NCBI GenBank assembly: GCA_035285325.1 | Contig: JAYKJB010000116.1 | Coordinates: 1-33,788 of the forward strand | DNA length: 33,788 nt | Direction: 5' to 3' | From: Candidatus Sericytochromatia bacterium | Lineage (GTDB): Bacteria > Cyanobacteriota > Sericytochromatia > S15B-MN24 > JAQBPE01 | Shown: positions 18,574 to 28,486 of the stretch, piece after piece | Layout of the letters: each line of letters opens with the position of its first letter | Numbering within the stretch: the first letter of the stretch is position 1 | Position numbers and translations under genes: made by a program | The notes under the pieces: generated by a model | Told to the model about the DNA's origin: nothing | Seen by the model: only the letters and a program-made list of their open reading frames with translations | Database searches by the model: none

Positions 18574-18585
18574 TCCGTTTTGACC

Positions 18586-19611
18586 ATGAACCTCGCGACG
18601 CTGGAACACACCTTGCAAGAGGCGCAAGTCGCACTCGAGGCGGCCCAGGACCTGCCGACGTTGGAGGCCTGGTACACCCAATTTTTCGGCAAGGAGCGCG
18701 GCGAGTTCCAGGCCCTGCTGCGCAGCATTCCCTCCCTGCCGCCGGCCGAGCGCAGCACCGTCGGCAAGGCCATCCACCAGGGCAAGCAGGCCCTCGAGGC
18801 CGCTTACGAGGCGCGCCGAACCGCCTTCGAGCAGGATGCTCTGACGGCCCAGCTGCGCAGTGAACGCGTCGACGTCACGCTGCCCGCGCGACGCCTCACC
18901 ACCGGCCACGCGCATCCCGTGCTTGCCATCAAGGAAGAGTTGATCGCCTTCTTCGAGCACTATGGCTTCAGCATGGCGGAAGGCCCCGAAATCGAAGACG
19001 ATTGGCACAACTTCACGGCGCTCAACACGCCGGCCGACCACCCGGCCCGCGACGCGCAGGACACGTTCTATCTGCCGGGCGGGGCCCTGTTGCGGACGCA
19101 CACGTCGTCGGTTCAGATCCGCGCCATGAGCGCCCAGCAACCGCCCCTGCGACTGATCATGCCAGGTCGGGTGTATCGGCGCGATGAGGTCACCAAGCGC
19201 CATTACCCGATTTTCCATCAACTCGAAGGCCTCATGGTCGACAGTCACGTCCACATGGGCCACCTCAAAGGTCTTCTGACCGAGATGCTGCGAGCCCTGT
19301 TCGGGCGTGAACTGGCTGTGCGCCTGCGACCCAGCTTCTTCCCCTTCACCGAACCCTCGGCCGAGGCGGACGTCGCCTGTCCGTTCTGCCACGGCAAGGG
19401 CTGCGGCACCTGCTCCTACAGCGGCTGGATTGAACTGTGCGGCGCCGGCATGGTCGATCCCAACGTGCTTCAGGCCGTGGGCTATGACCCCCGCACGGTG
19501 AATGGCCTGGCATTTGGCCTGGGCATCGACCGGGTGGCCATGATCCGGTATGGCATCAACGACATCCGTCTCCTCTGGGAAAACGACATCCGCTTCCTGC
19601 AGCAATTCTGA
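18586..19611 (+). CDS. pheS: Phenylalanyl-tRNA synthetase alpha subunit
   Basis: Catalytic subunit of the alpha2-beta2 enzyme that charges tRNA-Phe. The 341-residue protein has an N-terminal coiled-coil arm (about 1-85) and a class II core: THTSSVQIRAM, motif 2 region GRVYRRDEVTKRHYPIFHQLEG-like, and motif 3 AFGLGIDRVAMIRYGI. Between them is the Cys-rich insertion CPFCHGKGCGTC before SGWIELCGAGM, found in many non-proteobacterial enzymes and able to bind a metal. The ATG at 18586 is chosen; the in-frame TTG at 18580 lies closer to the ideal 6-nt distance from GGAG (18570-18573) and is possible. pheT follows after 57 bp. Confidence 0.96.
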   Translation: MNLATLEHTLQEAQVALEAAQDLPTLEAWYTQFFGKERGEFQALLRSIPSLPPAERSTVGKAIHQGKQALEAAYEARRTAFEQDALTAQLRSERVDVTLPARRLTTGHAHPVLAIKEELIAFFEHYGFSMAEGPEIEDDWHNFTALNTPADHPARDAQDTFYLPGGALLRTHTSSVQIRAMSAQQPPLRLIMPGRVYRRDEVTKRHYPIFHQLEGLMVDSHVHMGHLKGLLTEMLRALFGRELAVRLRPSFFPFTEPSAEADVACPFCHGKGCGTCSYSGWIELCGAGMVDPNVLQAVGYDPRTVNGLAFGLGIDRVAMIRYGINDIRLLWENDIRFLQQF

Positions 19612-19668: not shown

Positions 19669-22098
19669 ATGCGCATCCCGCTCTCCTGGCTCAACGCGCT
19701 TCTCCAGCCCGCCCTCGACCCTGAGACGGTCGAGCGTTCCTTGCTGACGGTCGGCCTGGAGGTGGAATCGCTGGAATATTCCGCCCCACGCCTGGAAACG
19801 GTGGTGGTCGGGCAGATCGTGGCGATCGCCCCACACCCGAACGCCGACAAGCTGCGCATCTGCCAGACCGACATCGGCGAGGCCGCGCCGCTGCAGATCG
19901 TGACCGGTGCGGCCAACGTTCAGCTGCACGACAAGATTCCGGTGGCCCGGGTCGGGTCCAACCTGCCGGGAGACAAGCGCATCGAAGCTGCCAAGCTGCG
20001 TGGCGTCGAATCGTTCGGCATGTACTGTTCGCTGGCCGAGCTGGGCCTGCCCCCGGGAGAGGATGGCGTCCACATCCTGCCGGCGGACACCCTGATCGGC
20101 CAGCCGATCGCTCAGGCCATGCAGCTGGGCGAACTGGTGCTGGAAATTGCCATCACGGCCAACCGGCCCGACCTGTTGAGCGTGGAGGGGGTCGCACGGG
20201 AACTGGCCGTAGCCAACCCGCACCTGACCCTGCTGCAAAGCCGCCCCAAGCCGCTCGCCGGCAAGCCCGGGCCTGCGGTGCGGCTTGGTCCGGTCGAAGC
20301 CTCTCGCTGCCCGCTTTACCGCGGTGTGACCGTGCGCGGGGTGCGGGTGGCCCCCTCGCCCGAGTGGCTGGCCAATCGTCTGTCAGCTTGCGGCATCCGT
20401 CCGATCAACAACATCGTCGACGCCAGCAACTACGTGATGTTACTGACGGGACAACCCACCCACGCCTTCGACGCCGCCCGCCTGGCCGGTCAGCAGATTC
20501 AGGTGCGCTTTGCCCAAGCCGGTGAAACGCTGCGAACGCTTGACGGCGTCGAGCGCGCCTTGCGTGAGGACGACCTCGTGATCGCCGACGCCGAGCGGGC
20601 GCTGGTGGTGGCCGGGGTCATGGGCGGGCTGACCGCGGAAATCACGCCCGAGACCACCGAACTCTTCCTGGAATGTGCCTACTTCGAGCCCTCGGCGGTG
20701 CGGCGGACCGGCCGGCGCCTGGGGCTGTCCACCGATTCTTCCTACCGCTTCGAGCGGGGGGTCGATCCGGCCGGCATTGCCCGGGCCCTTGACCTGCTGA
20801 CCGCCCTGGTTCTCGAACTGGGTGGCGGGGAAATGCTGGAAACGCCGACGGAATTTCGGCAGACCGATTTCCCCGCCGAGAAGACCATCGAGTTCCACCT
20901 GGATTCCCTGGAGCGCCTGGTCGGCGTCAGCGTGCCCAACCCCGAGGTCGAGCGCATTCTCGCCGGACTGGGCTACGGACTGAAGCGCCACACGGATGGG
21001 GTGTTCGAGCTGAATTCATACGACGTGACGGTGCCAGGCTGGCGCTGGCACGACACCACCCGCGAGGTCGACCTGGTGGAAGAGGTGACCCGCCACTGGG
21101 GCTATGAGCGCATCCCCGCCTGTTTGCCCGCCCCCGTATCGCCCCCCACGCAGCCCGCCACCGTGCAACTGGAGCGCAAGGCCCGGGCGGCGGCGATCGC
21201 CATGGGGCTGACGGAAGTCATGACCCGCTCACTGACCACGGTCGAAGCCGAACGCCTGGCCGGTCAGACCAGCGGCGACCACGTACGCCTGTCAGACCCG
21301 CTCAAGGAGATGACGGTGATGCGGACCGCCTTGCTGCCGGGCCTGCTGGAGGTGCTGCGCTACAACCGCTACCAGGGCTGCACCCAGCTGGGAATTTTCG
21401 AGATCGGCCGGACCTACCGCACCCGCGAGGGGGAACCGCCGCAGGAGCGCCTCTGGCTCGGGGGCGCCGTGATGGGCAGCCTCTGGCAGGGGCTGTGGCT
21501 GCCGGAGCATACCCCCTCCGCACTGGCCGTCGACTTTTTCTACGCCAAGGGGCTGCTGGAAGCCATGCTGGCTCAACTGGGGGTGGTCGGCGAGCTGACC
21601 TTCCAGCAAGCGGAGGCGGTGCCGGGCTGCCATCCGGGACAAGCCGCTTTGGCCTGGCTGGACGGCGCGGTGATCGGGAGCGTGGGGGCGATTCACCCTC
21701 AGGTGGCGCGGGACTATGACTTCCCCCCGCACGTCGGCTCAGCGGCTTTCTTCCTCGACCTGGATGCGCTCGCGGCGCGCCCGACCCGAAAGCTGCGTTA
21801 CCAGGCATTCGGTCGTCAGCCCGCAATCTTGCGCGACCTGGCCGTGCTGGCCCCGCGTGACCTCGCGGCCCAGGACGCGCTGGCGGTCATTCAGGCGCAC
21901 GGCGGCGCCTGGCTGGAAAAGGTCACCATGTTCGACCGCTTCACGGGCCCTGGAATCCCCGAAGAGAAAGCCAGTCTGGCCTTCAGCCTGGTGTATCGTT
22001 CCCCGGAACGCACCTTGACGGCGCAGGACATCGAACCGATCCACCAGGGCATCGTGGACCAGTTGCACACCCGCTTCGGTGCCGTGCTGAGGTCGTAA
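19669..22098 (+). CDS. pheT: Phenylalanyl-tRNA synthetase beta subunit
   Basis: Non-catalytic and editing subunit of PheRS. The 809-residue length is typical. Order of domains: N-terminal MRIPLSWLNALL; tRNA-binding OB domain (about 40-150, with HPNADKLRICQTDIGE); B3/B4 editing region (about 205-370, with SNYVMLLTGQPTHAFDA); B5 (about 405-475); a synthetase-like core; and a C-terminal FDX-ACB domain (about 705-809) that begins RYQAFGRQPAILRDLAVL. The ATG at 19669 has GAGG 7 nt upstream. It is co-directional with pheS and presumably co-transcribed. Confidence 0.96.
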   Translation: MRIPLSWLNALLQPALDPETVERSLLTVGLEVESLEYSAPRLETVVVGQIVAIAPHPNADKLRICQTDIGEAAPLQIVTGAANVQLHDKIPVARVGSNLPGDKRIEAAKLRGVESFGMYCSLAELGLPPGEDGVHILPADTLIGQPIAQAMQLGELVLEIAITANRPDLLSVEGVARELAVANPHLTLLQSRPKPLAGKPGPAVRLGPVEASRCPLYRGVTVRGVRVAPSPEWLANRLSACGIRPINNIVDASNYVMLLTGQPTHAFDAARLAGQQIQVRFAQAGETLRTLDGVERALREDDLVIADAERALVVAGVMGGLTAEITPETTELFLECAYFEPSAVRRTGRRLGLSTDSSYRFERGVDPAGIARALDLLTALVLELGGGEMLETPTEFRQTDFPAEKTIEFHLDSLERLVGVSVPNPEVERILAGLGYGLKRHTDGVFELNSYDVTVPGWRWHDTTREVDLVEEVTRHWGYERIPACLPAPVSPPTQPATVQLERKARAAAIAMGLTEVMTRSLTTVEAERLAGQTSGDHVRLSDPLKEMTVMRTALLPGLLEVLRYNRYQGCTQLGIFEIGRTYRTREGEPPQERLWLGGAVMGSLWQGLWLPEHTPSALAVDFFYAKGLLEAMLAQLGVVGELTFQQAEAVPGCHPGQAALAWLDGAVIGSVGAIHPQVARDYDFPPHVGSAAFFLDLDALAARPTRKLRYQAFGRQPAILRDLAVLAPRDLAAQDALAVIQAHGGAWLEKVTMFDRFTGPGIPEEKASLAFSLVYRSPERTLTAQDIEPIHQGIVDQLHTRFGAVLRS

Positions 22099-22191
22099 GG
22101 CGGGTTTTTCGCATTTGCCGCACGGGTACACAGCACCCACAGGGCAGCCGCGCAGCAAGACGGGCATGAACACGCCCCCAGGAGAATCGAC

Positions 22192-23223
22192 ATGGCCGGA
22201 CGCAAGTCCACCAACAAAGCCGACTTTTTCAGCTTGCTTCTGAGCAAGCTGGGCATGGCGGAGGCCCCTCCGGAACCGAAGCGCCGCCGCCGGCGCCAAC
22301 CGCGTCCCACGGAGCCTTATGTGGCGCCGCCTCAGTCATTCGATGAGAGCCTGCTTGAGGAGTCTCCGTTCGCGGGCTTTGGTGCTCAGGCGGGACTGAT
22401 GGATGAAGGCCCTGCCCAGCGCGACCTCCGCGACGAGCAGGCCGCGGCGGCGGGCTATGCGCCCCTCCCGAAGCCAGCAGCACCTGCCAGCGCCCCCTTC
22501 CCCACCGGAGCGGGTGACTTGCCCGGAGCCAGCGGCCGGCTTTTCCAGGAAGACGGCCTGGACAGCTCCCTGGACGCGTTGTTTTCGGGCCTGGAAGCGG
22601 GCTTCGCGGGTCCGCCCATTCCGCCCACGCCCGCCTCGCTCCCGCCTGACCCTCAGGCCCACGGCCCCCAAACTCACCCCACCCCGGCCGCCCCGGCACC
22701 GGGCTCTTCCCGCGTCATTCATACCCCGATCGTGGCAGCCACCCCGGTGGAAGTCCCGTCCACTCCGAACGCCCCCGCGGCAGCGGCCTCCCAGGTGGCC
22801 GTCCCTGCCTCCGTGCTGGCGGGGGCGTCCCTGTCGGCCCAGGGGTCGGCCCCCTTGCCCCTGTCGCGCGGCGTCGACCTGACCGCCCTGTTGATCAACA
22901 CCACGGCCCAGAAAGGCGTTGCCGGGGCCCTGCTGGTGGGTTACGACGGCCTGTTGATTGCCGCGCAGGTGCCTCGCGAGGTGGACGCGGAACGCTTGGG
23001 GGCGCAAGCGGGCACGCTGTTCTCAGAGAACAGCCAGCAACTGGTCAAATTGCAGCGGGGCGAGTTGCGACGCATGATGCTGGAAACGGCCAGTGGCGCC
23101 ATGTTAGTGACAGCGGCCGACATGGGTATCTTAGTCGTGGTGTCCAGGGACCGGCAGACGATGGATCTGACCGGTGTGCTGGCGGCAATCGGCGATGCCC
23201 TGGGGGCGGCCCAGGCTTCCTGA
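22192..23223 (+). CDS. Roadblock/LC7-domain protein with long disordered N-terminus
   Basis: A 343-residue protein. Residues 1-40 are basic (KRRRRRQPR), about 40-220 are a Pro/Ala-rich, low-complexity and probably disordered segment, and about 226-341 form an MglB-like Roadblock/LC7 domain: VAGALLVGYDGLLIAAQVPREVD-type strands, then a helix and GAMLVTAADMGILVVVSRD. Roadblock proteins such as MglB act as GTPase-activating or scaffolding partners of MglA-type Ras-like GTPases that control type IV pilus polarity. The position directly upstream of pilB-pilT-pilC supports a motility role. No MglA-like GTPase is in the window. It starts at ATG 22192 with AGGAGA 6 nt upstream. The domain call is good; the partner is unknown. 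Confidence 0.78.
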   Translation: MAGRKSTNKADFFSLLLSKLGMAEAPPEPKRRRRRQPRPTEPYVAPPQSFDESLLEESPFAGFGAQAGLMDEGPAQRDLRDEQAAAAGYAPLPKPAAPASAPFPTGAGDLPGASGRLFQEDGLDSSLDALFSGLEAGFAGPPIPPTPASLPPDPQAHGPQTHPTPAAPAPGSSRVIHTPIVAATPVEVPSTPNAPAAAASQVAVPASVLAGASLSAQGSAPLPLSRGVDLTALLINTTAQKGVAGALLVGYDGLLIAAQVPREVDAERLGAQAGTLFSENSQQLVKLQRGELRRMMLETASGAMLVTAADMGILVVVSRDRQTMDLTGVLAAIGDALGAAQAS

Positions 23224-23255
23224 GCTCCGGCCCATTTTGCCCGCGCTTCTCCCCA

Positions 23256-23269
23256 TTGAACGCGTTCAA
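23256..23269. promoter_or_regulatory. 14-bp perfect palindrome upstream of pilB
   Basis: TTGAACGCGTTCAA is a perfect palindrome in the 96-bp gap between the Roadblock gene and pilB, 50 bp before the pilB start. A TTGACG (23278-23283) with ATAGAA (23301-23306) 17 bp downstream could be a weak promoter, though its start point would fall on the ribosome binding site. The palindrome has the form of an operator for a dimeric regulator; the regulator is not identified. Confidence 0.4.
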
Positions 23270-23319
23270 CTCCACGATTGACGTGCACGGTTGACTGGAA
23301 ATAGAAGAGGTAGCATCCG

Positions 23320-25233
23320 ATGGCCCTCGTAAAAATGAAGTTGGGGGAAATCCTCCTCAACGCCAACCTCGTCACCGAAAGCCAGCTCAAAAAAGCCGTC
23401 GACATTCAAAAGGAGACCAAAGAGTCGCTCGGGATGATCCTGATCAAGCAGGGCTACATCTCCGAAGCCTCGATCAAGGACGCACTGGAGCTGCAGTACG
23501 GCCTCCGCTACGTCAACATGAGAAAAATCAAGGTGGCGCCGGAAGTCCTCAAGATGGTGCCGGAAAACCTGATCCGCCAGCACCAGATCATTCCGATTCA
23601 ATTCGCCAACAACCGGCTGACCCTGGCCATGGTCGATCCGACCAACCTGATTGCCATCGACGACGTGCGCTTTCTGCTCAAGGGCGTGGCGGTGCAACCC
23701 GTCATCATCACGGAGGATGAGTACTACTCTTTCCTGGAAAGCAGCTTCAAGGTGGAAGTCCAGGAAATGCAGGCGGCCACGCTGGAAGACCTCCTCAACG
23801 CCTTCGGCGACGATGAGATGGAACTCATCGACGAGGACGACGAAGAGGCCATGGGGCACGTCAACCTCGAAGGCAACGCCGACGAGGCACCGGTGATCCG
23901 GTTGGCCAATACCATTCTCATGAACGCCCTCGGATCGGCCCGCAAGGTCTCGGACATCCACGTCGAACCGCAGGCTGGCAACATCGTGGTGCGCTTCCGG
24001 CAGGACGGCGTGCTACACAAGCAGATGGAATTGCCAAGCAAGATTCTGCCCGCCCTGGTGTCCCGCTTCAAAATCATGTCGAACCTGGACATCGCCGAGA
24101 AACGCTTGCCTCAAGACGGGCGCATCAGCGTCAAGTTCCGCGGCAAGGAGATCGACTTCCGCGTGAGTTCCTTGCCGTCGAAGTTCGGCGAAAAAATCTG
24201 CATGCGCATTCTCGACAAGACCAACACCGGGGTGCCCCTCGACAAGCTGTTCATCTTCGAGAACGACTACAAGACCGTGATGGAAATGGTCAACCGACCC
24301 TTCGGCATCATTTTTGTTTGCGGTCCGACGGGCTCGGGCAAGACCACCACCCTGTACTCGATCCTGGCCAACCGGAACACCCCGGACGTGAACATCTCCA
24401 CCGCGGAAGACCCGATTGAATATGACTGTCCCGGCATCACCCAGTGTCAGGCCAAGCCGGACATCGGTTACACCTTCGCGCGCATCCTGAAAGCCTTCTT
24501 GCGCCAGGACCCCGACATCATGCTGATCGGGGAGACCCGCGACAAGGAACTGGCCAAGATCGCCATTGAAGCCGCCCTGACGGGCCACTTGGTGTTCACC
24601 TCGCTGCATACCAACGACGCGCCCGGCGCCATGATGCGCCTGGATGAGATGGGGGTGGAAGGCTTCCTGACCGCGGCCGCCACCATCGGCGTGATCGCGC
24701 AACGGCTGGTGCGCAAGCTGTGTCCGCAGTGCTCCCAGGACTACACCCCGACCCAGGAGACGATTGACTTCGTCGGCCTCAAGTACGACCCCTCGCAACC
24801 CCTGGTCATGCGCAAGCACAATCCAACCGGCTGTGCCGAATGCGTGAAGGGCTACTCGGGCCGCATGGGCGTGTATGAAATCATGAAGATGACGGATCAG
24901 ATCCGTGAAGTGGTCGCCCGCGGCGGCGGTTCGGCGCTGATCCGCTACGCGGCCAAGCAGTCCGGCATGATACAGCTCAAGGACTATGCGCTGAAACTGG
25001 CGATGCTCGGTCACACGGACATCGACGAGGTGATCCGCGTCTGCTTCTCGGACGAGGGCGCGGCCAAGCTGTGTCCCTCCTGCCGCAACGAAGTGGGTGA
25101 TGACTACATCAAGTGCCCTTTCTGCTCGACCAATCTCCGCATGGTGTGCGTGAAGTGCAATTCACGCATCGAAGAGGGATGGAAGGCCTGTGCGCTCTGT
25201 GGCACGCCGGCCCCCTCGCTGGGCCCCGCGTGA
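23320..25233 (+). CDS. pilB: Type IV pilus extension ATPase PilB with C-terminal zinc ribbons
   Basis: Hexameric ATPase that powers pilin polymerisation at the inner membrane. The 637-residue protein has an N-terminal MshEN/GspE_N domain (about 1-150: KLGEILLNANLVTESQLKKA), an acidic linker (DDEMELIDEDDEEA), and the GspE core with Walker A GPTGSGKTT (335-343), the Asp-box segment STAEDPIEYD and Walker B-like DPDIMLIGETRD. It also has the standard tetracysteine element CPQC (468-471) and CAEC (505-508). From residue 585 there is an additional Cys-rich tail: CPSC, CPFC, CVKC and CALC, a double zinc-ribbon that ordinary PilB proteins lack. It starts at ATG 23320 with GAGG about 10 nt upstream. 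pilT and pilC follow. Confidence 0.93.
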   Translation: MALVKMKLGEILLNANLVTESQLKKAVDIQKETKESLGMILIKQGYISEASIKDALELQYGLRYVNMRKIKVAPEVLKMVPENLIRQHQIIPIQFANNRLTLAMVDPTNLIAIDDVRFLLKGVAVQPVIITEDEYYSFLESSFKVEVQEMQAATLEDLLNAFGDDEMELIDEDDEEAMGHVNLEGNADEAPVIRLANTILMNALGSARKVSDIHVEPQAGNIVVRFRQDGVLHKQMELPSKILPALVSRFKIMSNLDIAEKRLPQDGRISVKFRGKEIDFRVSSLPSKFGEKICMRILDKTNTGVPLDKLFIFENDYKTVMEMVNRPFGIIFVCGPTGSGKTTTLYSILANRNTPDVNISTAEDPIEYDCPGITQCQAKPDIGYTFARILKAFLRQDPDIMLIGETRDKELAKIAIEAALTGHLVFTSLHTNDAPGAMMRLDEMGVEGFLTAAATIGVIAQRLVRKLCPQCSQDYTPTQETIDFVGLKYDPSQPLVMRKHNPTGCAECVKGYSGRMGVYEIMKMTDQIREVVARGGGSALIRYAAKQSGMIQLKDYALKLAMLGHTDIDEVIRVCFSDEGAAKLCPSCRNEVGDDYIKCPFCSTNLRMVCVKCNSRIEEGWKACALCGTPAPSLGPA

Positions 25234-25282: not shown

Positions 25283-26404
25283 ATGTATATGGAAGAGTTG
25301 CTGCAGATGGTGTTTGACCGCGACGGGTCAGACCTCCACATCGCGGCCAACGTTCCCCCGATCATCCGCATCAACGGCAAGTTGACCAAGACGGATTACG
25401 AGCCTCTGACGGGCGAGGACACCCAGCGGCTGATCTTCTCGATCCTCACCAACGAGCAGCGCAAGCAACTGGAGCAGACCTACGAGCTGGACTGCTCTTA
25501 CGGCGTGGTCGGGTTGGGCCGCTTTCGTGTCAACTCCTTCAAGAGCAAGGGCAATTACGCGGCCGTGCTGCGAACCATCAACTCGAAGGCGCCCAAAATG
25601 GAAGACATGAGCATGCCGCCGATCGTCTCGGAATTGACGCACAAGCCGCGCGGCATGGTGCTGGTGACGGGGCCGACCGGTTCGGGCAAATCGACCACGC
25701 TGGCTGCCATGATCGACCACATCAACAGCCATCGCGCCGAGCACATTCTGACCATCGAGGACCCGATCGAATTCGTACACCAGTCCAAGATGAGCCTGGT
25801 CAATCAGCGGGAACTCCACGCCGACACGCGCTCCTTCGACAACGCGCTGAAGGCGGCCCTGCGCGAAGATCCTGACGTGATTCTGGTGGGTGAAATGCGT
25901 GACCTGGAGACCATTCGACTGGCGCTCTCCGCCGCCGAAACGGGCCACCTGGTCTTTGGCACCCTTCACACCAGCTCGGCCTCGCAGACGGTCGACCGTA
26001 TCGTCGACGTGTTTCCCCCTCACCAGCAGCAGCAGATTCGCGTGCAGCTCTCCAACTCGCTGGTGGCCGTGTTGTCCCAGGCCCTCGTTCCCAAGCTGCA
26101 AGTGGAGCCAGGCAAGCGGGGACGCATCATGGCGCAGGAAATCATGATCGTCACACCCGCCATTGCGAACCTGATCCGCGAAGGCAAGACCGCCCAGGTC
26201 TATTCCGCCATCCAGACGGGGGGCAAGTTCGGCATGCAGACCCTGGAGATGGCCCTGCGCGATCTGTACATGAACAAGCAGGTGTCCTACGAGGACGCCC
26301 TTTCCAAGAGTTCCCGTCCAGATGACCTGGCCAAGATGCTGGGAGGGACCCTCGGAGGTGCGCCGGCCGCACCGGCATCTTCGCCCGCCGGCATGAAGAA
26401 GTGA
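25283..26404 (+). CDS. pilT: Type IV pilus retraction ATPase PilT
   Basis: Hexameric ATPase that depolymerises the pilus, producing twitching motility and DNA uptake. The 373-residue protein has an N-terminal PAS-like domain starting MEELLQMVFDRDGSDLHIAA, then Walker A GPTGSGKST, the IEDPIEF box, Walker B DPDVILVGEMRD, the His box FGTLHTSSASQTVDRI, and a C-terminal AIANLIREGK. The last corresponds to the AIRNLIRE retraction motif with Arg replaced by Ala. ATG 25283 is chosen because GGAAGGAG ends 11 nt upstream. It lies 49 bp after pilB. The Ala- and Pro-rich tail is variable in the family. Confidence 0.95.
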   Translation: MYMEELLQMVFDRDGSDLHIAANVPPIIRINGKLTKTDYEPLTGEDTQRLIFSILTNEQRKQLEQTYELDCSYGVVGLGRFRVNSFKSKGNYAAVLRTINSKAPKMEDMSMPPIVSELTHKPRGMVLVTGPTGSGKSTTLAAMIDHINSHRAEHILTIEDPIEFVHQSKMSLVNQRELHADTRSFDNALKAALREDPDVILVGEMRDLETIRLALSAAETGHLVFGTLHTSSASQTVDRIVDVFPPHQQQQIRVQLSNSLVAVLSQALVPKLQVEPGKRGRIMAQEIMIVTPAIANLIREGKTAQVYSAIQTGGKFGMQTLEMALRDLYMNKQVSYEDALSKSSRPDDLAKMLGGTLGGAPAAPASSPAGMKK

Positions 26405-26456: not shown

Positions 26457-26504
26457 CAGGGAACTTTGAGCCTAGGGGGCAGAGCCCCGACAAGAGGCGT
26501 GCAC

Positions 26505-27758
26505 ATGGCAACCGTCTTTGAGGTCAAGGTCCGCGACAAGCGCGGTAAGACCTTCACCCGGACCGTCAAGGGGGACAACCCCAATGCGGTTCGCCAGGAC
26601 CTGCGCAACAAGAACTTCACCGTGGTCGGGATCCGCGAAAAGGGGGCGGGGCCCGCGGCGCAGATGTCGGCCATGTTCTCTGGCGTCAGCATGGACGGCC
26701 TGAACAAGTTCTTTGAAGGCAAGGTCAAGCTCAAAGACCTCTGCATCTTCGCCCGGCAGTTTGCCACGATGATCAACGCAGGCGTCTCGATGGTGCGCTC
26801 GCTGGGCATCCTGGCGGAACAGGCGGAATCCGCCAAATTGCGCCGCATCCTGACGGACGTCAAGGAGCAGGTGGAGCAGGGGCAGGCCCTCTCGGACTCG
26901 ATGGGCAGGTACCCGGATGTCTTCAACAACCTGTTCTGCGGCATGATCAAGGCGGGTGAGGCAGGCGGTGTGCTGGACAACGTGCTGTTGCGCGTGGCGG
27001 GCTTTCTGGAAAATCAAAATCGTCTGAACACCCAGGTCAAGAGTGCCATGGCCTACCCCCTGACGGTCATGGTGTTCGCCCTCATCATTTCGGCCGTGAT
27101 GCTGATGTTCATCGTGCCGATGTTCGCCTCGATGTTCGAGCAGATGGGTGCCAAGCTGCCCGCCTTTACCCAGCTGCTGGTCGACCTGAGCAACCTGCTG
27201 ACCTCGGTGTACGCTGTGGTGGGGGTGGTGTTCATCGTGCTGGCCTTTCAAGGCTTCCGCATTTTTCAGTCCACCCCGCAAGGCGCCTTGCTGGTGGACC
27301 AGTACAAGTTGAAACTGCCCGTCCTCGGGGACTTGATCCGGAAAGTGGCCGTGGCCCGCTTCTCACGCACGCTGGGCACCCTGCTGAAATCAGGGGTGCC
27401 TCTGATGCCCGCGCTGGAGATCGTGCGAGACTCCATCGGCAACCTGATCATCGCGGGCGTCATGGAAGACCTGCGCCTGTCGGTTTCCGAGGGCGAGGGG
27501 CTGGCCAAGCCGCTGGAGCGGGCCGCCGTGTTCCCCTCGATGGTGACCCAGATGGTGTCCATCGGCGAAGAAACGGGTTCGATCGACGCCATGCTGGACA
27601 AGGTGGCCGACTTTTACGATGAAGAGGTCGATGCGGCGGTCAAGGCCCTCACCTCGATGCTCGAACCGTTGATGATGGTCATGATCGGCGGCATCGTCGG
27701 CTCGATCATCATCGGGATGTATTTGCCCATCTTCGACATCGTCAACAAGATCAAATGA
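26505..27758 (+). CDS. pilC: Type IV pilus inner-membrane platform protein PilC
   Basis: Polytopic platform that couples PilB/PilT to the pilus. The 417-residue protein has a short N-terminal domain (FEVKVRDKRGKTFTRTVKG) and two repeated GspF cytoplasmic domains: FARQFATMINAGVSMVRSLG with MIKAGEAGGVLDNVL, then FSRTLGTLLKSGVPLMPALE with MVSIGEETGSIDAML. Three membrane segments lie near 180-210, 227-250 and 385-413. The ATG at 26505 has AGAGG 7 nt upstream; the upstream TTG at 26466 would add residues with no family match. Its stop lies 20 bp before the chosen start of the sigma gene. Major pilins and other pil genes are outside the window. Confidence 0.95.
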   Translation: MATVFEVKVRDKRGKTFTRTVKGDNPNAVRQDLRNKNFTVVGIREKGAGPAAQMSAMFSGVSMDGLNKFFEGKVKLKDLCIFARQFATMINAGVSMVRSLGILAEQAESAKLRRILTDVKEQVEQGQALSDSMGRYPDVFNNLFCGMIKAGEAGGVLDNVLLRVAGFLENQNRLNTQVKSAMAYPLTVMVFALIISAVMLMFIVPMFASMFEQMGAKLPAFTQLLVDLSNLLTSVYAVVGVVFIVLAFQGFRIFQSTPQGALLVDQYKLKLPVLGDLIRKVAVARFSRTLGTLLKSGVPLMPALEIVRDSIGNLIIAGVMEDLRLSVSEGEGLAKPLERAAVFPSMVTQMVSIGEETGSIDAMLDKVADFYDEEVDAAVKALTSMLEPLMMVMIGGIVGSIIIGMYLPIFDIVNKIK

Positions 27759-27778
27759 GGCAGCAAGAGGGAGAGCCG

Positions 27779-28486
27779 ATGCCGACGAATTCGGACCCAT
27801 CTCCCGAGCTGAGCTTCGACCGCTTCGCCCACCTGATACCTCCGATCGCGCGGCACCTGGCCGGGCAGCGCCCGGACCATCTGGATGACTTGCTGCAAGT
27901 GGGCGCCATCGGGCTGCTTCGGGCCCTGGCTCAGGCCGACCCCGCCCGGACTCACACCTTCGAGCGTTACGCCTGCAGCCGGATTGCCGGTGAAATGCGG
28001 CATTATCTGCGGGACCAGGCGCCGCTCGTGCGTCCCCCACGGGAACTGGTGGAACTGCGTGGCCGCGTGCTCGCCGCCCAGAGCGCCTTGCAGCAAGGCG
28101 AGGCACGTGAGCCCTCCTCGGCGGAGATCGCGGCATGGAGTGGCCTGCCCGTGGAGAAGGTGGACGATGTGCTCTTGCTGGAGTCGCAGGGATCACCGGC
28201 ATCGCTGGACCAGGCGCTGGAGCTGGAAACCGGAACCCAACGCTATCAGCTGATCGACAACCGATACTCCAGTTTCCAGCTGGCCACGGACGATCGCTTG
28301 ATGCTCGATGCTGCCCTTGGCCGTTTGAGACAGGCTTCGCGCGAGGTGATTGAATTCGCCTTCTACGAGGACCTGACCCAGATGGAAATTGCCAGTCGCC
28401 TGGGCATCAGCCAGATGCAGGTGTCTCGGCGCTTGCGTGCGGCAGTCGGGGAACTCTGGAAGGTCCTCAACACCAAGCTGTTCTGA
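27779..28486 (+). CDS. Group 3 RNA polymerase sigma factor (SigF/SigB-like)
   Basis: A 235-residue sigma-70 family protein without region 1. Region 2 is DHLDDLLQVGAIGLLRAL followed by HTFERYACSRIAGEMRHYLRD, region 3 is about residues 95-140, and region 4 is LTQMEIASRLGISQMQVSRR, a helix-turn-helix for -35 binding. The layout matches SigF/SigB/FliA-type alternative factors. The usual Trp after region 2.4 is missing (RDQAPLVRPPREL). The ATG at 27779 has AGGGAG 5 nt upstream; an in-frame ATG at 27755 overlaps the pilC stop but lacks a binding site. In the cyanobacterium Synechocystis a group 3 factor, SigF, is required for pilus formation, so control of pilus genes is a reasonable inference here. 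No anti-sigma gene is adjacent. Confidence 0.88.
   Translation: MPTNSDPSPELSFDRFAHLIPPIARHLAGQRPDHLDDLLQVGAIGLLRALAQADPARTHTFERYACSRIAGEMRHYLRDQAPLVRPPRELVELRGRVLAAQSALQQGEAREPSSAEIAAWSGLPVEKVDDVLLLESQGSPASLDQALELETGTQRYQLIDNRYSSFQLATDDRLMLDAALGRLRQASREVIEFAFYEDLTQMEIASRLGISQMQVSRRLRAAVGELWKVLNTKLF

Follow-up and report, generated by a model that had tools for sequence, protein, structure and literature searches.

The window, by which we mean the whole stretch of 33,788 nt that was analysed, encodes directly before pilB-pilT-pilC a protein in which a long arm leads to a C-terminal Roadblock/LC7 domain. This protein, here called ROBL, may serve the type IV pilus motor as a membrane-tethered adaptor, a reading that presumes motor binding and to which we assign a probability of about 0.5. 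ROBL is a candidate for a pilus component so far overlooked in the non-photosynthetic relatives of cyanobacteria. Its gene adjoins pilus motor genes in two classes, in one family (f25) in genomes where MglA was not found, and this offers a natural experiment on direct service of Roadblock domains to motor ATPases.

The ROBL protein and its genomic window

The window (Table 1) corresponds to contig 116 in a genome assembly of 3.83 Mb and 138 contigs. As read from the sequence, a Shine–Dalgarno-like AGGAG (22180–22184) lies 7 bases 5' of the ROBL start codon. The gap between ROBL and pilB is 96 bases, and no terminator-like site was found at 22000–23400 (shuffles mean 1.3). Of the NCBIfam models, that for PilT exceeded its cut-off. 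Those for PilB and PilC were the best-scoring ones yet below their curated cut-offs, and the Pfam domains of both proteins were above cut-off. The position of ROBL immediately before the three pil genes, as claimed in the sequence-only reading, is borne out by this gene order.

Table 1. Positions of ROBL, its parts and its neighbours in the window.
Feature	Position	Strand	Basis
pheS	18580..19611	+	
pheT, found upstream of family members in two classes	19669..22098	+	
ROBL gene (343-aa arm-plus-Roadblock protein)	22192..23223	+	ORF list, Pfam; ATG start
Amphipathic helix ADFFSLLLSKL, residues 10–20, proposed membrane-targeting end	22219..22251	+	AF2 helix 10–19; prediction only
Lys/Arg patch behind helix, residues 30–38	22279..22305	+	Sequence
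Pro/Ala-rich low-confidence arm, residues 39–221	22306..22854	+	AF2, composition
Conserved arm motif LFQEDGLDSSLDALFSGLEAG, residues 117–137	22540..22602	+	Class motif count; AF2 helix 123–135
ROBL Roadblock/LC7 domain, residues 222–343	22855..23220	+	Pfam, AF2, fold search
pilB, extension ATPase with MshEN domain	23320..25233	+	Pfam, NCBIfam
pilT, retraction ATPase	25283..26404	+	Pfam, NCBIfam
pilC, platform protein	26466..27758	+	Pfam, NCBIfam
Sigma-70 family factor, overlaps pilC end	27755..28486	+	SigF and SigB/F/G best-scoring models, below cut-off

The C-terminus of PilB is zinc-ribbon-like (residues 585–630, window positions 25072–25209), at scores just below the Pfam cut-offs. A homologue of the sigma gene was also present 3' of pilC in two of three fetched pil loci of Obscuribacterales (L255, L257), so that pilB-pilT-pilC-sigma looks like an old unit. 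Beyond the window, the genome has three PilT-like genes on contigs C25, C75 and C21, and the one on C25 (G000:C25:1083-2177; L122, L128) contains one in-frame TGA.

The Roadblock domain proved to be real. Robl_LC7 (PF03259) matched residues 237–317 (E 3.9e-11, 43 bits vs. a cut-off of 23), and an AlphaFold2 (AF2) model based on a 12-row alignment showed the Roadblock fold at about residues 230–342, with the arm at low confidence; both profile and fold place ROBL in the Roadblock/LC7 superfamily, and the absence of this fold, named in the sequence-only reading as a refuting outcome, did not come about. The best solved match of this model was MglB of M. xanthus (6hjm; Z 8.4, rmsd 3.8, 109 residues aligned). 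The model of a homologue (L035, 16 rows), most of whose Roadblock domain had pLDDT 83–96 (falling to 60–67 midway and to 61 at its end), matched the Asgard Roadblock 7yh1 (Z 15.5, rmsd 2.9, 111 aligned) and MglB 6hjm (Z 13.5). By sequence, the closest solved relative was Asgard 7f8m, at 9.1e-12 with the family profile; the domain of the window's ROBL by itself matched 7f8m at 1.7e-6 and CvnB5 at 8.9e-6.

Most relatives carry about 45 conserved residues (GKMLVDQ...TTTQVI) N-terminal to the Roadblock domain (L032–L042, aligned columns). This extension is absent from the window's ROBL and from L031 (family f1), and in L035 it was predicted as a pair of helices. Scans of L036 and L039 detected no Pfam family in the region other than Roadblock, and the idea that the extension is an MshEN-like piece of PilB was rejected (hhalign probability 0.6%).

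The N-terminus of ROBL is likely a membrane tether, as judged from predictions. In six members of the order that were compared, a similar helix stretch is followed by Lys/Arg, and K/R exceed D/E in the first 70 residues. The sister families f6 and f7 possess a transmembrane (TM) helix in place of the amphipathic helix, L033 has two flagged segments and the nine f25 proteins scored have three to five predicted TM segments, by a hydropathy cut-off that in some proteins, the window's included, picks out a strand of the Roadblock domain as well. By itself, the hydrophobic moment failed to separate the two types (0.26–0.52 for TM-type vs. 0.50–0.59 for helix-type). The best argument for ROBL working at the membrane is that an anchor is present in every group though its type differs.

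What had been described as a basic, Pro/Ala-rich arm of 180 residues is indeed rich in these residues (53% Pro/Ala/Gly/Ser), but its length is about 220 residues and only residues 1–45 are basic (11 K/R, 4 D/E); residues 46–221 are acidic (5 K/R, 17 D/E). Helices were predicted in it at low to moderate confidence (residues 10–19, 123–135 and a short one at 78–82). The arms of all 13 members of the class contained the motif [LIVM]DxxLDx[LIVM]F, with 43 strict copies in total (shuffle mean ≤0.0025 per arm); one copy was present in six arms, three in two, and five to eight in five, the arm of L038 having a masked stretch. The class consensus was LF-x3/4-[LV]-D-x-x-L-D-x-[LI]-F. Between the window's ROBL and its nearest relative, the motif stretch was identical at 17 of 23 positions, with LDSSLDALFSGLEAG unchanged, vs. 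28/70 and 22/83 in the flanking arm and 64/122 in the Roadblock domain. The motif was helical in the AF2 model of the window's protein and not helical in that of L035.

Arms of family f25 carry a motif of their own, (D/E)LxxIFEQYSSL (10/10). In the second class, a profile of the Sericytochromatia motif had no significant match. Seven arm pieces were tested for a looser core, Lxx[ILM]Fxx[FYL], and each contained it (P between 0.0000 and 0.0128 by shuffling), both the core and the pieces having been picked after the sequences were seen, and the sequence likeness is only suggestive of the two motifs being the same.

Gene order in two classes

The class of the window, taken to be Sericytochromatia, was sampled with 18 genomes. 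A class profile search gave matches in 14 of them, and 13 had long-arm homologues; G017 gave only a weak match of 49 residues. ROBL preceded pilB in 12 of the 13 members, i.e., in the window and in 11 of the 12 loci of relatives (in L041, a contig end cuts pilB). The exception was G007, where ROBL still follows pheT (L082), with the gene interrupted by contig ends, and pilB was found on a different contig, 4.7 kb from its end. All five loci of family f6 kept the pil neighbour with no pheT neighbour. These same five loci have a short second Roadblock gene between ROBL and pilB, encoding 108–110 aa (L038–L042, e.g., L039:8624-8950 on the minus strand), and a heterodimer of the long-arm and short Roadblock proteins of f6 is conceivable.

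Five genomes of the class had no long-arm homologue (G002, G003, G008, G009 and G017). G003 possessed neither ROBL nor a close PilT (best 47%) and kept two MglA. No PilT was detected at 1e-80 in G009 and G017, which are 64% and 74% complete. G002 and G008 possessed PilT with no ROBL detected, but their contigs end inside pilB.

For the second class, which we take to be Vampirovibrionia (families f25, f40, f42 and f44), a homologue search of 117 genomes gave matches in 47. The gene order pheT-ROBL-pilT was found in 10 of 10 f25 loci, including one with ROBL split into two ORFs (L218). According to the coordinates, the ROBL stop and the pilT start are −4 to 15 bases apart, a spacing like that of translationally coupled genes. 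The Roadblock domain of f25 is strongly diverged, as seen in the Pfam scan of three proteins (21.5, 13.4 and no bits; cut-off 23), in the alignment and on the tree. A profile built without f25 rows matched G105 at 5.7e-9 and nine of the 10 f25 C-terminal ORFs (L215 was below threshold), a profile comparison gave 96% probability, and the homology is thus independent of f25's own rows. G076, an f25 genome that is 98% complete, contained neither ROBL (1e-5) nor PilT (1e-60).

The single f42 locus (G294) encodes a 316-aa protein between pheT and pilT. It has four membrane segments, contains the stretch NLSSLFDIY and weakly matched the family profile for Roadblock; no match was obtained with the full-length f25 profile or Pfam Roadblock. 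PilT was present without a detected family member in G293, G294 (the genome with the 316-aa protein) and G297. Conversely, family proteins were present together with MglA in two f44 genomes in which no PilT was detected at 1e-60.

Among Obscuribacterales (f40 type), all six examined pheT-linked homologues were located away from pil genes, and pilB-pilT-pilC formed a separate locus in the three cases fetched. The pheT link is therefore no younger than the pil link, which is itself old, given its occurrence in both classes. The earlier expectation of linkage to pil genes in relatives accordingly held for the class and for f25 but not for Obscuribacterales, whose homologues have no pil genes nearby. 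The large paralogues of f40 and f44 sit in other neighbourhoods. Giant paralogues with a C-terminal Roadblock domain (about 1470–1850 aa; L220–L223, L227) occur in Obscuribacterales and f44, and their 190-aa neighbour, scanned for L222 and L223, was both times a sigma-70 region 4 protein.

We propose to define the ROBL family, spanning the window's class and Vampirovibrionia, by a membrane anchor, the arm motif, a C-terminal Roadblock domain, and pheT and/or a pil motor gene as neighbour. The window's protein has all of these, its anchor as a prediction.

MglA, MglB and the GTPase question

A Ras-family search listed no match on the window contig, in agreement with the earlier remark that the window holds no GTPase gene. 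The genome-wide search found one MglA, on contig C120 beside another Roadblock gene. The description of ROBL as simply an MglB-type protein lacking its partner is not supported: a DUF4388-MglB-MglA locus exists elsewhere in the genome, on a different contig (DUF4388 at 72.8 bits), and MglB rows group apart from ROBL. On a Roadblock tree of 67 rows and 127 columns, which are few for so many rows, 20 MglA-neighbouring MglB-type rows and ROBL2 formed one group (support 100/99) that included no ROBL row. The ROBL rows did not form one group (three changes needed), and the place of f25 beside short Roadblocks was not used, as long branches meet there. The genome's MglB found M. xanthus MglB at 1.8e-20, and no MglB chain was among the matches of the window's ROBL domain at E up to 1. 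Identity of ROBL with MglB was rejected by tree group, by neighbourhood (it is not beside mglA) and by sequence. The genome has three Roadblock genes in total. The third of them (L002:1414-1872, 152 aa) is MglB-type on the tree, and no mglA match was found on its contig.

MglA was detected in 17 of the 18 genomes of the class, including all 13 with ROBL, and the genome that missed it is 64% complete. An MglB-type gene adjoined MglA in 16 of the 17; in the seventeenth, the contig begins there. MglA was likewise present in seven of seven f40 and two of two f44 genomes tested. Among 11 f25 genomes, a single-sequence search at 0.001 found MglA in none, and a ten-row profile at E up to 10 yielded one fragment of 56 residues at 0.18; as a control, the MglA profile found the MglA of the window's genome at 1.2e-98. 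Ten of these 11 genomes have ROBL beside pilT and the eleventh is G076. ROBL can hence persist beside a motor gene without MglA, and elsewhere the two co-occur.

A Gly-Ala pair in helix 2 of the Roadblock domain was conserved in the rows of the MglA-bearing classes (Gly in 17/17, Ala in 16/17) and was not seen, on inspection of the alignment by eye, in ten f25 rows. The f25 domain looks diverged as if a partner had been lost. The proposal of a pilus polarity or motor-coupling factor stands as far as a pilus-linked Roadblock factor is concerned; motor coupling would fit better than polarity because f25 keeps ROBL beside pilT with no MglA found.

Proposed role and relation to known systems

As a motor adaptor, ROBL would dimerise through its Roadblock domain, and its N-terminus would hold the dimer at the base of the pilus, on the inner membrane. 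From the flexible arm, the motif would form a helix onto which PilB, PilT or a partner of either could dock, and ROBL would in this way recruit or gate the ATPases of extension and retraction. Its Roadblock end could take input from a GTPase (e.g., MglA) where one is present, without the family needing it. Based on the persistence of f25 beside pilT without MglA, we read the pilus link as primary and the GTPase link as optional. Since one family lacks the usual GTPase partner, ROBL may act on the pilus motor directly, as an adaptor of a sort so far undescribed. More tentative is the version in which Roadblock function needs no small GTPase: a membrane-tethered dimer, with one to eight docking motifs on its arms, would capture PilB/PilT hexamers and regulate this secretion-type motor ATPase. 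If that were true, a fold known as a GTPase partner would regulate an ATPase of the secretion type. The gene order, the predicted anchors, the arm motifs, the persistence of f25 without MglA, and the joint absence of ROBL and close PilT from G076 and G003 were counted for a pilus-motor adaptor. The f44 genomes without PilT, the unlinked homologues of Obscuribacterales, the genomes with PilT and no ROBL, the motif profile's lack of significance in the second class, the non-helical motif of the L035 model, the failed profile matches of the 316-aa protein, and the divergence of the f25 Roadblock domain without MglA were counted against it.

The divergence of f25 and its missing Gly-Ala pair would be accounted for if ROBL were coupled to MglA, its Roadblock dimer forming a platform (scaffold or GAP-like) that brings MglA-GTP to the pilus base, with f25 as a derived remnant after MglA loss. 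The regular presence of MglA in ROBL-bearing genomes of the class and in f40 and f44 agrees with such coupling, which we nevertheless consider rather unlikely: f25 has retained the gene, the membrane segments, an arm motif and the pilT linkage without MglA, an MglB-type gene is already placed beside MglA in nearly all genomes of the class, ROBL is separated from MglB on the tree and in the sequence searches, and G003 has two MglA and no ROBL. Still less probable, in our estimate, is a membrane scaffold with no direct pilus role, acting in the pheST neighbourhood or in general membrane organisation, for which the pil adjacency would be inherited gene order. The pheT linkage in both classes, also where the pil genes are elsewhere, and the other neighbourhoods of the large f40 and f44 paralogues (beside a sigma-region-4 gene in two cases scanned) point that way. 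Against it stand the five f6 loci that keep the pil neighbour without pheT, the close ROBL-pilT spacing in f25, and G076 and G003, in which ROBL and close PilT are both missing.

The arm motif consensus also resembles the N-terminal motif of FliM/FliY, LSQ-x-EIDALL. By analogy, the arm might dock a CheY-like receiver, through which chemosensory signals would reach the motor, although we regard this as very improbable.

In bacteria, Roadblock proteins are for the most part interpreted as partners of GTPases. Outside bacteria, Ragulator/LAMTOR and EGO are Roadblock dimers on a membrane anchor, with Rag GTPases as partners. ROBL resembles them in outline, as a putative membrane-anchored Roadblock dimer and by computed fold matches; these complexes are eukaryotic and made of several chains, whereas ROBL combines anchor, arm and Roadblock domain in one chain. 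MglB, the GAP of MglA in Myxococcus and Thermus, shares with ROBL the Roadblock fold and a connection to pili, but ROBL belongs to another tree group, is not located beside mglA and has a long arm with anchor and motif. According to two papers on Myxococcus, MglA/MglB control pili and MglA acts on pili with SgmX (PMC7519303, PMC7668184), an arrangement that an MglA-coupled ROBL would resemble.

ROBL also parallels the Roadblock genes of archaeal pilus loci. According to the relevant passage of PMC4858521, archaeal type IV pilus loci encode Roadblock proteins (arCOG02603), to which that passage gives no role. ROBL likewise belongs to a type IV pilus locus and is likened to these proteins by locus alone; the systems in question are archaeal, and arm, anchor and motif are absent from their description in that passage (PMC4858521). 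The Asgard Roadblocks (7f8m, 7yh1, 9jue) and Streptomyces CvnB5 (3leq) were the closest solved chains by sequence and among the top fold matches, but with 94–131 residues they are without the arm of ROBL. Within the conservon of Streptomyces, CvnB is the Roadblock protein. Regulation of NTPases by Roadblock proteins has been proposed, as cited in PMC4316618. A literature search that left out preprints and covered few subscription papers found no paper joining Roadblock with Melainabacteria, and PMC9481161, consulted for interface residues, gave none.

For the motor adaptor reading, the arm motif represents a defined peptide that is usable as bait. As a genome-wide tag the motif was rejected: its degenerate DNA pattern had four matches in the window's genome, of which by inspection only the one in ROBL is read in a plausible gene, and the pattern run backwards as a control had zero forward and two reverse matches. 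Matches of the DNA pattern were translated at 17 chosen places in nine genomes. Locus L087 (G013:C8) contains an acidic open frame of 249 residues with two arm-like copies of LDxxLDxMF outside any Roadblock protein.
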